Assembly (NCBI RefSeq): GCF_000682715.1
Contig: NZ_AWFH01000034.1
Span: forward strand, 124,001 to 188,000
Direction: 5' to 3'
Source: Hyphomonas atlantica corrig.
GTDB lineage: Bacteria > Pseudomonadota > Alphaproteobacteria > Caulobacterales > Hyphomonadaceae
DNA length: 64,000 nt
The position numbers and the translations under genes were made by a program. Shown here piece after piece: positions 22,666 to 27,688 of this stretch. Positions within the stretch are counted from its first letter, which is position 1. Each line of letters starts with the position of its first letter. Below the pieces are notes generated by a model, which saw only the letters and a program-made list of their open reading frames with translations, searched no databases and was not told the DNA's origin.

Positions 22666-22737
22666 TCGCATTCCCATGCTTGCCTCGTTCCGCGCGCGGC
22701 TGTAACCCGGCACGATATTGATATCCGGACTTCTGCC

Positions 22738-23634
22738 ATGACTGCACCAAAGGCACATGCCAAACCGAAATCCTTTCAGGATCTTATCCTGACGCTCCAG
22801 AATTACTGGGCCGAGAAAGGCTGCGCGATCCTGCAGCCCTATGACATGGAAGTCGGCGCAGGCACGTTGCACCCCGCTACGGTTCTCCGGGCGCTTGGGC
22901 CGAAAGAGTGGCGCGCCGCCTATGTCCAGCCTTCCCGGCGCCCAAAGGATGCGCGCTACGGTGAGAACCCGAACCGGCTTGGCCATTACTATCAGTTCCA
23001 GGTTATCCTGAAGCCGAACCCGGCCAACCTTCAGGACCTTTATCTGGAAAGCCTGTACGCCATCGGCATTGACCCGACCGTCCACGACATTCGCTTTGTC
23101 GAGGATGATTGGGAGAACCCGACGGTAGGGGCCTGGGGCCTTGGTTGGGAAGTCTGGTGCGACGGGATGGAAGTCAGCCAGTATACCTATTTCCAGCAGG
23201 TTGGCGGCCTCGACGTGTTTCCGGTGTCCGGCGAGCTGACCTATGGTCTCGAACGCCTCGCCATGTATGTGTTCGGCGTCGACAATGTTTATCATCTGCC
23301 ATTCAACGATCCGGACAGCGAAGTGCCGCTGACGTATGGCGATGTCTTCCTCGAGAATGAGCGCCAGCAATCGGCCTTCAATTTCGAGCATTCGGATGTT
23401 GAAATGCTGAAGCGCTGGTTTGCAGATTGCGAGAACCAGTCAAATGCCCTGCGCGAAGCGGGTAAGCCGCTGCCGGCCTACGACTATGCCCTGAAGGCGA
23501 GTCACACCTTCAACCTGATTGATGCGCGCGGCGCGATCAGCCCGACGGAGCGTCAGGCCTATATCGCCCGTGTTCGCGACCTTGCCCGAGGCGCCGCAGC
23601 GCAATGGGCTGAGCAGGAAGGCGCCGGCGCCTAA
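22738..23634 (+). CDS. glyQ: Glycyl-tRNA synthetase alpha subunit
   Basis: This 298-residue catalytic subunit of the alpha2beta2 glycyl-tRNA synthetase activates glycine. Class II features are visible: [19 protein letters not shown] at the N-terminus, [20 protein letters not shown] (motif 2 region), and [16 protein letters not shown] (motif 3, ATP-binding Arg). Length and composition are normal. Its partner glyS follows only after an inserted gene at 23704-25569, although the two are adjacent in most genomes. Confidence 0.96.
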
Positions 23635-23703
23635 GGGCGAAGACCCGCGCATTTGTCCATTGCGGCCCGTGGGAGTAGAGTTTCTCCCGTGGGAGGACGC
23701 GTC

Positions 23704-25569
23704 ATGTTTCGCGGGATATTGATTTGCCTGATGTTTCTGGGCGTTGCGCTCGGCGCTGATGCCAAGACCAAACGCGCCTTGATTGTCGGCGTGGGCGATT
23801 ATGAGCAACTGCCCGACCTTCACAAAACAACTGGCGACGCGACCGGATATTCCGAGGCTTTCGAGGGGCAGCTGGGCTTTGAGGTCACCCGCCTGATCGA
23901 TCCGGGTACGATAGAGTTTCTGGAGGCGTTGGATGGTTTCCTTCAATCCATAGAGCCGGGGGATGAAGTTGCCTTTATCTTTTCCGGGCATGGCTGGTCA
24001 GACGGCGCTGACAATTTCCTTGCCCTGAGGGATGCCCCGCTGGAATCATCAGAGTTCGCGCTACGCCGCCAGACGGTGTCTTTGTCGAATGACGTGCTGG
24101 CAGAGATCAAGGCGCGAAGGCCCGGCCTGTTGTTCGCCATCATCGATGCCTGCCGGGACAATCCCTTCGACACGGGTACGCGCAGCGTAACGCGAGGCCT
24201 GTCGCGGCTGGAGATCGTGCCGGGCACACTCGTTGTCTATGCGGCGGGCGCCCGGCAGAAGGCGCTGGACCGGCTGGGGCCTGAGGATGACTCGCCCTAT
24301 TCGGTCTTCACGCGCAGCCTGTTGCCGCGCCTTGGCGACCCGGAGATTCCACTTCTGCGTAGCGTCGACGAGACGCGCAGCGAAGTTGCCGTGCTAGCGT
24401 CGAGTATCAATCATGAGCAGCGCCCGGCCATCTACTCGGACGTGTCACTGGATTACTGCTTCGCGGGTGAATGTCGCACCGATGTCGCCCTTGATCAGGA
24501 AACGGTCGACTGGGTGGAGATTTCCAGTGTCGGCTACACGGCGGTTGATCCCTGTACCAAATATGCGCGGCACCTTGAGAAGTATCCTGATGGGAAATTT
24601 GCCGAGGTGGCGCGCCGAAATCTCGCCAATCCGCCCTGCGCCCGCACGCGATTGCAGTTGAAGTCGGTGTCCTGGTTCGGAGACCTGAGCGGCCACACGG
24701 ATGAAGTCTACGGTGTGGACTACAGCCCGAGCGGTCGGTTCGTGGCGAGTGCCTCAGCAGATCACACCGCGCGTCTCTGGATCGTCGGCATGACGCCAAG
24801 CCTTTATGGCCAGTCGACCGAACTGAACGGCCATACCGCGCCGGTCCTGACTGTGCGGTTCAGCCCAAATGAAGAGCGCCTCATCACGGCGTCTGAAGAC
24901 GGCACGGCGCGCATCTGGAGCTCGCTGGGCGAGGAGGCGCGGCTTGTTCTGGACGGGCATGACAATGTCGTCGCCTATGCGGAATACAGTCCGTTCGGGG
25001 ACCGGGTGGTCACGGCCTCCTATGACAAGACCGTTCGGGTGTGGAATTCTCGATCAGGCGAGGAAATTTTGCGACTGTCAGGGCATTCGGCTGCGGTTCG
25101 CTCCGCCAGATACAATGCCGATGCCAGCCAGATCGTTACGGCGTCGAATGACGGCACGGTGCGCGTATGGGATGCGGAAACAGGTCAGCAGGTGCGCATG
25201 GTCGAATCCGGCGAATTGCCCGCGACCTATGCCACGTTCAGCGCGAATGGTGACCGTATTCTCGTAGCCTCTGCCGACAAGAGCGCGCGTGTCTGGGATG
25301 ATGACGGCAATATGCTGGAACTGACGGGACACGAAGCGCCCCTGTGGAACGCAACCTTCAGCACCGATGGGGAATTCGTTGCGACCAGCGCGATGGATCT
25401 GTCCGGAAAGATCTGGGACGCGGAGACGGGAGCCTTTCTGGCGGGTGTGCAGGATCTCAGCATGTATGGCGCGAACTGGGTTGAGTTCTCGCCAGACGGA
25501 AAGCGGCTGCTCGTCTCCATGAAAGGGGGCGGCCTGCAATTGTGGGAGTTGACCTTCGGTGCGGACTGA
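23704..25569 (+). CDS. Secreted caspase-like (peptidase C14) protein with seven WD40 repeats
   Basis: The 621-residue protein has a signal peptide (residues 1-20, ending GADA). A caspase-fold domain (about 23-245) carries the catalytic dyad His96 (FIFSGHGWSD) and Cys150 (AIIDACRDNPF). A linker with a YARHLEKYPDGKFAEVARRN helix follows. Seven WD40 repeats from about residue 327 to the end (each GH...DGTARIW-like) should close one propeller. It is thus a bacterial metacaspase/orthocaspase fused to a binding platform, and is predicted to be periplasmic. GGAGG fixes the ATG at 23704. It sits between glyQ and glyS with gaps of 69 and 85 bp. Substrate and trigger are unknown. Confidence 0.88.
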   Translation: MFRGILICLMFLGVALGADAKTKRALIVGVGDYEQLPDLHKTTGDATGYSEAFEGQLGFEVTRLIDPGTIEFLEALDGFLQSIEPGDEVAFIFSGHGWSDGADNFLALRDAPLESSEFALRRQTVSLSNDVLAEIKARRPGLLFAIIDACRDNPFDTGTRSVTRGLSRLEIVPGTLVVYAAGARQKALDRLGPEDDSPYSVFTRSLLPRLGDPEIPLLRSVDETRSEVAVLASSINHEQRPAIYSDVSLDYCFAGECRTDVALDQETVDWVEISSVGYTAVDPCTKYARHLEKYPDGKFAEVARRNLANPPCARTRLQLKSVSWFGDLSGHTDEVYGVDYSPSGRFVASASADHTARLWIVGMTPSLYGQSTELNGHTAPVLTVRFSPNEERLITASEDGTARIWSSLGEEARLVLDGHDNVVAYAEYSPFGDRVVTASYDKTVRVWNSRSGEEILRLSGHSAAVRSARYNADASQIVTASNDGTVRVWDAETGQQVRMVESGELPATYATFSANGDRILVASADKSARVWDDDGNMLELTGHEAPLWNATFSTDGEFVATSAMDLSGKIWDAETGAFLAGVQDLSMYGANWVEFSPDGKRLLVSMKGGGLQLWELTFGAD

Positions 25570-25654
25570 TCCGCCCATCTGCACGTCTGGCGCTTGACCC
25601 TGACGCCCGCGCTAGTATGCCGTGCAAGCTTGTAGTTACTGGCTGGACCCCTTC

Positions 25655-27688
25655 ATGGCAGACCTGATTCTCGAACTCTTCTCAGAGGAAATTCCCGCAC
25701 GGATGCAGGCCAAGGCCGAGCAGGACCTGGGTGCGGCGCTGGAAAAGGCGCTTGGCGAGGCCGGGCTGAGCTGGGCGTCGCTGGAAACAGCATCTGGGCC
25801 GCGCCGCCTGACAGTGTTTGTGGATGATTTGTCCGAACGCTCAGCCGATGTGAAGGAAGAACGCAAGGGCCCCAAGGTTGGCGCGCCTGACAAGGCAGTC
25901 GAAGGCTTCCTGCGCGGTGCGGGGCTCAGCGACATCAACCAGGCTGAAGTGCGCTCAGACCCGAAAAAGGGCGACTTCTACGTGGCCGTGATCGAGACGC
26001 CAGGCCGGGATGCGACAGACATCATTGCGGAGGCTGTGCCTGCCATCATTCGCGGCTTCCACTGGCCCAAGAGCATGCGCTGGGGGACAGGTGAGCTGCG
26101 CTGGGTGCGCCCGCTGCAGCGGATTGTCTGCGTTCTGGACGGCAAGATTGTGCCGTTCGAGGTCGACGGCGTGGCCAGCGGCAACGAAACCGAAGGCCAC
26201 CGCGTGCACGGCCGTGGGCCCTACAAGGTGCTCGATCGCCAGGATTATGAGGAATCCCTGTCCGGTGCAGGCCATGTGAAGTTGACGCGTGATGCCCGCC
26301 GCGAAGTGATCCTATCCGGTATTGAGAAGGTTTGCACAGACGCTGGCCTCGAGTGGATCGAGGATAAGGGGCTTCTGGAAGAAGTGGTTGGTCTCGCCGA
26401 ATGGCCTGTCGTCGTGCTGGGCGACATGGACCCGGCCTTCCTGAGCCTGCCGCCGGAAGTGATCCAGCTGTCCATGCGCACGCACCAGAAGTATTTCGCC
26501 GTCAACGACAAGAAGACCGGCAAGCTCGCGCCGAATTTCATCGTAGTTGCGAATATCGAAGCGACAGATGGCGGCAAGAAGCTGGCCGAAGGCAATTCGC
26601 GTGTCCTGTCGGCGCGTCTCGATGATGGCCGCTTCTTCTGGGAGAAGGACAAGGCGACGCCGCTTGAAGACATGGCCGCGAAACTGTCCACGATTGCGTT
26701 CAAGGCGGAGCTTGGCTCGCTGGGCGACAAGGTGGAGCGCGTTGCGGCGCTGGCCCGTGAACTTGCTCCCAAAGTTGGCGCCGATCCGGACCTTGCCGAA
26801 CGCGCAGCACGTCTCGCCAAGGCAGACCTTGTATCAGAAATGGTCGGCGAATTCCCGGAACTGCAGGGTGTCATGGGCCGCTACTATGCGCTGGAAGAGG
26901 GCGAGCCCGAAGCGGTCGCCGATGCCATCCGCGACCATTACAAGCCGCAGGGCCCGAGCGATTCCGTGCCGACCGATCCGGTGGGCATCGCTGTCGCGCT
27001 GGCTGACAAGCTGGATACGCTGGTTGGATTCTGGGCGATTGACGAGAAACCGACGGGTTCAAAAGATCCGTTCGCGCTGCGCCGTGCGGCGCTGGGCGTG
27101 GTTCGGATTGTGTTGGAGAATGAAGTGCGACTGAAACTTCATTCCAACTTGGAAGTGTCGAGCGACCTCCTCTCCTTCTTCGCTGACCGCCTCAAGCAAG
27201 TCCTCCGTGATCAAGGCCAACGCCACGACCTGATCGATGCGGTCTTCGCCCTCGGCGAGGATGATCTCGTGCTCATCACGCGCCGTGTCGAAGCGCTGGG
27301 GGCGTTTCTGGATACCGAGGACGGCGCGAACCTACTCGCGGGCTACAAGCGCGCCGCGAACATCCTCAAGGCCGAGGAGAAGAAGGGCGATTTGCCGTCC
27401 GATCTCTCAGTCGATGACGCGCTGATCGCGAAGGGCCCCGCCGAGGAGCAGGCGCTGGGCAAGGCGTTGGCGGATGTTGAGGCAGCAATCGAAGGGCCTC
27501 TGGCGGCGGAAGACTTCACCGGCGCAATGGCCGAGCTGGCCAAGCTCCGCGCGCCGGTCGACGCGTTTTTCGAGGCCGTCATGGTCAACGATGATGACGC
27601 CGCTGTCCGGGCGAATCGCCTGGCCCTGCTGACCAAAATTCGCGCAACGCTGCATTGCGTAGCTGATTTCTCCCGTATCGACGGTTGA
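25655..27688 (+). CDS. glyS: Glycyl-tRNA synthetase beta subunit
   Basis: The 677-residue beta subunit recognises tRNA(Gly) and completes the heterotetramer with GlyQ. The N-terminus DLILELFSEEIPARMQ and the central EWPVVVLGDMDPAFLSLP, MRTHQKYFAV and SRVLSARLDDGRFFWEKD motifs are diagnostic, and a C-terminal anticodon-binding-like helical domain follows. The ATG at 25655 is chosen over one at 25622 because the conserved protein begins there. It lies 85 bp after the caspase/WD40 gene; no clear terminator separates them, so co-transcription with glyQ remains possible. Confidence 0.95.
   Translation: MADLILELFSEEIPARMQAKAEQDLGAALEKALGEAGLSWASLETASGPRRLTVFVDDLSERSADVKEERKGPKVGAPDKAVEGFLRGAGLSDINQAEVRSDPKKGDFYVAVIETPGRDATDIIAEAVPAIIRGFHWPKSMRWGTGELRWVRPLQRIVCVLDGKIVPFEVDGVASGNETEGHRVHGRGPYKVLDRQDYEESLSGAGHVKLTRDARREVILSGIEKVCTDAGLEWIEDKGLLEEVVGLAEWPVVVLGDMDPAFLSLPPEVIQLSMRTHQKYFAVNDKKTGKLAPNFIVVANIEATDGGKKLAEGNSRVLSARLDDGRFFWEKDKATPLEDMAAKLSTIAFKAELGSLGDKVERVAALARELAPKVGADPDLAERAARLAKADLVSEMVGEFPELQGVMGRYYALEEGEPEAVADAIRDHYKPQGPSDSVPTDPVGIAVALADKLDTLVGFWAIDEKPTGSKDPFALRRAALGVVRIVLENEVRLKLHSNLEVSSDLLSFFADRLKQVLRDQGQRHDLIDAVFALGEDDLVLITRRVEALGAFLDTEDGANLLAGYKRAANILKAEEKKGDLPSDLSVDDALIAKGPAEEQALGKALADVEAAIEGPLAAEDFTGAMAELAKLRAPVDAFFEAVMVNDDDAAVRANRLALLTKIRATLHCVADFSRIDG

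Follow-up and report, generated by a model that had tools for sequence, protein, structure and literature searches.

The window, a 64,000-nt stretch of the Hyphomonas atlantica genome, carries a gene for a 621-aa protein between glyQ and glyS, the genes for the two subunits of glycyl-tRNA synthetase (GlyRS). All three genes lie on the same strand. The features of the locus are as follows (window positions, strand, feature).

22680..22708, +, glyQ promoter-like element TTGCCT-N17-TAACCC, of conserved TTG-N3-N16-18-TA shape
22738..23634, +, glyQ, glycyl-tRNA synthetase alpha subunit (PF02091, E 6.1e-140)
23653..23681, +, caspase-gene promoter-like element TTGTCC-N17-TAGAGT, the 17-nt spacing fixed in 14/14 Hyphomonas copies
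23704..25569, +, predicted exported C14 protease/WD40 propeller protein, 621 aa (ORF, Pfam, same-site copies)
23704..23763, +, Sec-type signal peptide, predicted cleavage after Ala20 (between ADA and K; hydrophobic core, AxA)
23770..24441, +, caspase (Peptidase C14) domain (PF00656; MALT1 match by sequence and fold)
23989..23991 and 24151..24153, +, codons of His96 and Cys150, the invariant dyad
within the C14 domain, +, candidate acidic S1-pocket residues Asp45, Asp148 and Asp189, all invariant
24442..24678, +, linker with Cys252, 257, 284 and 312, probable disulfides, invariant in 15 copies
24679..25560, +, seven-bladed WD40 propeller (PF00400; Foldseek matches)
25594..25621, +, glyS promoter-like element TTGACC-N16-TATGCC (34/34 with insert, 0/8 without)
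25655..27688, +, glyS, glycyl-tRNA synthetase beta subunit (PF02092, E 5.4e-190)

The caspase–WD40 ORF runs from an ATG at 23704 to a stop ending at 25569, 69 bp after glyQ and 85 bp before glyS, and a terminator scan found no terminator-like site in either flanking gap. Coordinates and Pfam thus agree with the original prediction of a protein with signal peptide, C14 domain and WD40 repeats, encoded between same-strand glyQ and glyS with these gaps and no terminator. The program-made ORF list begins the gene at 23653, with a TTG upstream of the ATG at 23704. It is the ATG that is served by a ribosome site, GGGAGG, and that relatives share as their start; on sequence grounds the start is assigned to this ATG rather than to the TTG. 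The GC content of the gene (0.606; GC3 0.709) matches that of glyQ and glyS, so that a recent foreign acquisition is not supported. A chance ORF is ruled out by the domains, dN/dS and 15 same-site copies described below.

The C14 domain and the WD40 propeller

Pfam placed Peptidase_C14 (PF00656) at residues 23–246 (E 5.9e-20, 72.4 bits against a cut-off of 21.4) and also reported WD40 (PF00400, E 1.3e-53), of which seven repeats are readable in the sequence. The full-length model had a mean pLDDT of 84, and its WD40 half resembled seven-bladed WD40 structures, as had been proposed from the repeats; Foldseek matched the propeller to WDR5 and to a designed seven-blade propeller with a TMt of about 0.9. 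Among the 25 Pfam families listed there was no NACHT, and the C14 and WD40 domains are joined by a linker of ~80 residues (247–325).

Because WD40 folds swamped the full-length structure search, the caspase half was modelled separately (pLDDT 88). Its best structural match was MALT1 (Z 27.7, rmsd 2.6, 217 residues, 22% identity), and the best solved relatives by sequence were also MALT1 (profile E 2e-19). The superposition takes in the whole MALT1 caspase domain, which has no homologous p10 (PMC5756287), and extends to about residue 256 of the window protein. His96 and Cys150 align with the GHG and DxCR motifs of MALT1. The profile alignment pairs Asp45 with Asp365 of MALT1 and Asp148 with Asp462, a numbering based on the alignment of the motifs plvDvyel and llDmCRk; MALT1 Glu500 is the candidate counterpart of Asp189, which is invariant in the 15 same-site copies. 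Asp365, Asp462 and Glu500 are the acidic S1-pocket residues held responsible for the P1 specificity of MALT1 (PMC4357240). Since Asp45 and Asp148 coincide with acidic residues of this pocket, the caspase domain is predicted to be Arg/Lys-specific at P1. The protease is probably catalytically active, and by analogy with MALT1 its activation may require dimerisation.

WD40 proteins sometimes act purely as scaffolds, and the caspase fold might be inactive and serve, jointly with the propeller, for binding. Pseudo-orthocaspases are mentioned in PMC6426788, and the dyad is missing in about 25% of alphaproteobacterial metacaspases (PMC3501461). This scaffold reading is nevertheless unlikely here: His96, Cys150 and the three aspartates, like Cys252/257/284/312, are kept in 15/15 same-site copies, and the dyad and acidic pocket are near-invariant across a 44-sequence alignment. 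The dyad originally reported as intact has therefore not been lost in relatives at this site.

Predicted export

A hydrophobic core and an AxA site at residue 19–20 are present in 15/15 same-site copies. The only cysteines of the mature protein are the catalytic one and the four linker residues, all of them conserved in the 15 copies. The signal peptide, this cysteine pattern and the envelope-type C-termini of relatives (below) lead us to infer that the protein is exported and periplasmic, in keeping with the earlier proposal of an exported C14 protease bearing a propeller. The linker cysteines probably form disulfides.

Same-site copies, relatives and selection

Of 42 genomes in the genus, 14 have the caspase gene between glyQ and glyS, and so does one genome from another genus (G024); a cultured carrier is H. 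jannaschiana VP2 (L007). A one-strain oddity is thereby ruled out, and the survey of Hyphomonadaceae gaps that had been suggested for this purpose thus gave a positive answer. The 13 other Hyphomonas proteins are 60–93% identical to that of the window. On the glyQ+glyS tree, caspase carriers within the genus are confined to a single 19-genome clade, of which 14 have the gene and five do not.

The G024 protein retains the caspase domain (74% identity) and the linker (69%), while its C-terminus is a cyclophilin (PF00160) whose best PDB match is the AquaCyp 5ex2 (E 4.5e-42). AquaCyps are described as periplasmic (PMC4898713). The G024 gap holds DUF2314, cupin and CDGSH genes, then the caspase–AquaCyp-type cyclophilin fusion, then glyS. 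In the caspase-domain tree the same-site copies fall within a Hyphomonadaceae clade whose other members have OmpA, Sel1 or FGE-sulfatase C-termini; L011, which is more distantly related, has a peptidoglycan-binding domain (PG_binding_1) beside the caspase module. The grouping of the same-site copies as a single clade is weak (support 0.56), with G024 nested inside it (support 0.91), a placement that hints at passage of the caspase cassette between genera. As the nearest caspase-domain relatives carry other C-termini, the WD40 half appears to have been acquired or exchanged within the lineage. The best reading of the OmpA, peptidoglycan-binding, Sel1, sulfatase-modifying and AquaCyp-type C-termini in relatives is that the C-terminal domain of exported caspases is exchangeable.

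Other C14 genes were noted in these genomes. The genome of the window also encodes a C14 protein that ends in an FGE-sulfatase-like domain (L001), a lipoprotein-like protein with the C14 domain at its C-terminus (L005), and a 540-aa protein with two tandem C14 domains and a Tat-like RR signal sequence (G000:C1:616851-618287, L003/L006), in whose second C14 domain the His motif is GYG (His to Tyr) with the Cys retained. In G069 and G068, exported caspase genes are paired and adjacent (L260 and L103), with an OmpA C-terminus in one member of the pair and an FGE-sulfatase C-terminus in the other.

The caspase–WD40 gene is under strong purifying selection. By the Nei–Gojobori method, dN/dS was 0.035–0.06 for the caspase domain and 0.06–0.12 for the WD40 half in most pairs, ratios that are rough when dS approaches or exceeds 1; G054/G055 were too alike to judge, and G000/G066 gave 0.18 and 0.25. 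Selection of this kind, as opposed to arms-race change, argues against two other roles, that of an orthocaspase-like executioner in programmed cell death and that of an effector against phage. C14 domains have been discussed in such terms (PMC3501461), and PADLOC gave a weak 'caspase' match (E 4.5e-8 over 154 residues). However, neither a NACHT/STAND sensor nor any further defence gene was found in the gap, the protein is predicted to be exported, and its relatives carry cell-wall modules, so that we regard a role in death or defence as improbable.

The glyQ–glyS gap in other genomes

In a class-wide sample, the gap between linked glyQ and glyS outside Hyphomonadaceae was 150 bp or less in 105 of 115 pairs (median 36), as measured between Pfam domain edges, so that gene ends beyond the domains are counted in. 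In Hyphomonadaceae it was 150 bp or less in only 10 of 92 linked pairs and exceeded 300 bp in 80, with a median of about 1,100. The normal adjacency of the two genes, taken as a premise in the original prediction, therefore holds for other Alphaproteobacteria and mostly fails in Hyphomonadaceae, and the placement is unusual relative to the class.

The cargo of the gap is varied, comprising DUF2314, cupin, CDGSH, a small lipoprotein-like family, a methyltransferase, DUF3047, an RF-1-domain protein and a glutamine cyclotransferase, among others; the gene calls rest on a codon-position filter that may miscall small genes. Long opposite-strand ORFs in the gap (e.g. clusters C0 and C17) were set aside as mostly antisense artefacts of GC-rich genes. 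When glyQ–glyS gaps from other families were searched for Hyphomonadaceae cargo, all matches were short, and most were to antisense ORFs over the ends of glyQ or glyS. Short-gap genomes occupy about five separate places on the glyQ+glyS tree, which is built from the flanking genes themselves and printed without support values. The best explanation is that the gap opened in Hyphomonadaceae and received different genes in different lineages.

The pheS–pheT pair is likewise interrupted: of 39 Hyphomonas genomes in which the two genes are linked, 27 have an insert of 0.45–1.1 kb between them. This indicates that interruption of synthetase pairs is a trend of the lineage and not special to glyQ–glyS. 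L263-L276 are pheS–pheT loci from 14 Hyphomonas genomes. Among the open-licence papers searched, we found none on glyQ–glyS insertions or Hyphomonas caspases.

Promoter-like elements at the three genes

All 34 Hyphomonas genomes whose gap holds an insert (at least 677 bp up to glyS codon 2) have an element CTTGACC-N16-TANGCCG about 60–70 nt before the glyS start codon; it is missing from the other 8, whose gaps do not exceed 57 bp. The association gives a Fisher p of 8e-9; as the genomes are related, the association is better gauged by the approximately five places on the tree where short gaps occur separately. At pheT, read as a control, 13 of 14 inserted loci had no glyS-like element and one had a loose match, which suggests that the separate promoter belongs to glyS in particular and does not come with insertion generally.

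The caspase gene is preceded by an element TTG-N3-N17-TA-N4 at −50 to −53 in 14/14 Hyphomonas copies, in most relatives TTGGTC-N17-TAACCT; the same-site caspase gene of G024 has no caspase-type upstream element. The two hexamers carry means of 1.62 and 1.66 bits of information as against 0.98 in the spacer. The boxes were chosen by their TTG/TA pattern, and conservation of those letters is partly by construction; other hexamer positions carry 1.05–2.0 bits. Upstream of glyQ, TTG-N3-N16-18-TA occurs at −56 to −68 in every Hyphomonas locus reaching that far. A generic sigma-70 scan of the window did not flag the caspase and glyS boxes, and the −35/−10 boxes are a poor fit to the E. coli consensus. 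From their conservation we infer that the boxes before the caspase gene and glyS are working promoters.

In close relatives an inverted repeat of varying sequence lies over the caspase −10 box (window 23670-23692; L223-L226), for example GGTAAGG-GTAA-CCTTACC in G070 and GGGAG-N8-CTCCC in the window. It could be an operator or could be due to chance.

These elements argue against the original suggestion that caspase expression follows GlyRS levels. Of the promoter and terminator that might isolate the gene, a promoter-like element is present and a terminator is absent, and read-through from glyQ into the caspase gene is possible. A functional partnership between caspase and GlyRS, in which shared transcription from the glyQ promoter would make the amount of protease track that of the synthetase, would suit the shared strand, the short terminator-free gaps and the retention of the position in 14 Hyphomonas genomes, but it is very unlikely given separate promoter-like elements before the caspase gene and glyS, sister genomes in which the gap is empty or filled with unrelated cargo, and a signal peptide predicting a compartment other than that of GlyRS. 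The unrelated cargo likewise weakens the view of caspase and GlyRS as one system.

Proposed function

The reading that we favour, and consider reasonably probable, is that the gene encodes an exported, paracaspase-like Arg/Lys protease whose envelope clients are chosen by its propeller, carried as cargo of the gap with its own promoter. The caspase gene would be transcribed from this promoter and the downstream glyS from another of its own. The protein would be exported to the periplasm, where the linker disulfides would form; the C-terminal propeller, as a module for binding clients or partners, would bring envelope proteins to the N-terminal caspase domain, which would cleave them after Arg or Lys. 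Recruitment of clients by the propeller is suggested by the G024 protein: because caspase domain and linker are kept while WD40 is swapped for a periplasmic-type foldase, the C-terminus appears to be a targeting module.

A broader reading, which we offer more tentatively, is that the Hyphomonadaceae glyQ–glyS gap is a site of cargo exchange and the caspase a periplasmic protease of modular build, with a targeting domain that is swapped in situ. Cassettes (DUF2314, cupin, CDGSH and exported caspases with swapped C-termini) would be gained, lost and passed between genera, and in Hyphomonas a fixed promoter upstream of glyS would keep the essential gene running whatever the gap contains.

Bacterial caspase relatives are usually discussed as cell-death or stress proteins, and budding bacteria such as Hyphomonas remodel their envelope. 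If the favoured reading of an exported, propeller-targeted protease is true, exported caspases with swappable periplasmic domains point to the control of envelope proteins. The gap survey indicates that an essential two-gene operon can split in one family, each half with its own promoter-like element.

Comparison with known systems

The protein resembles WD40 metacaspase-like proteins, or orthocaspases (PMC3501461, PMC5756287), in having a C14 p20 domain with a His/Cys dyad and, C-terminal to it, WD40 repeats. The commonest extra domain among prokaryotic metacaspase-like proteins is WD40 (10.9% of sequences), and members with WD40, possible N-terminal signal-peptide helices or peptidoglycan-binding domains were already described in 2012 (PMC3501461). 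The window protein differs in its signal peptide, its four-Cys linker and the lack of NACHT among the Pfam families listed; metacaspase–NACHT–WD40 signalling proteins have a NACHT NTPase at the C14–WD40 junction, where only the linker lies here. MaOC1 of Microcystis (PMC7935541, PMC5756287), a biochemically characterised bacterial p20 protease, is likened to it by description only, and the neighbours of MaOC1 are toxin–antitoxin genes, unlike glyQ and glyS.

The closest solved structure is the MALT1 paracaspase (PDB 3uo8, 3v4o); the two have the dyad in common, and two acidic S1 residues of MALT1 align with aspartates of the window protein. It differs from MALT1 in being bacterial and predicted to be exported, and in having WD40 in place of death and Ig domains. 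The periplasmic AquaCyp cyclophilins (PDB 5ex1, 5ex2; PMC4898713) represent the type of C-terminus found in the G024 copy and absent from the window protein. We conclude that the protein is of a type already known and that its placement between glyQ and glyS is one of many cargo insertions in Hyphomonadaceae.
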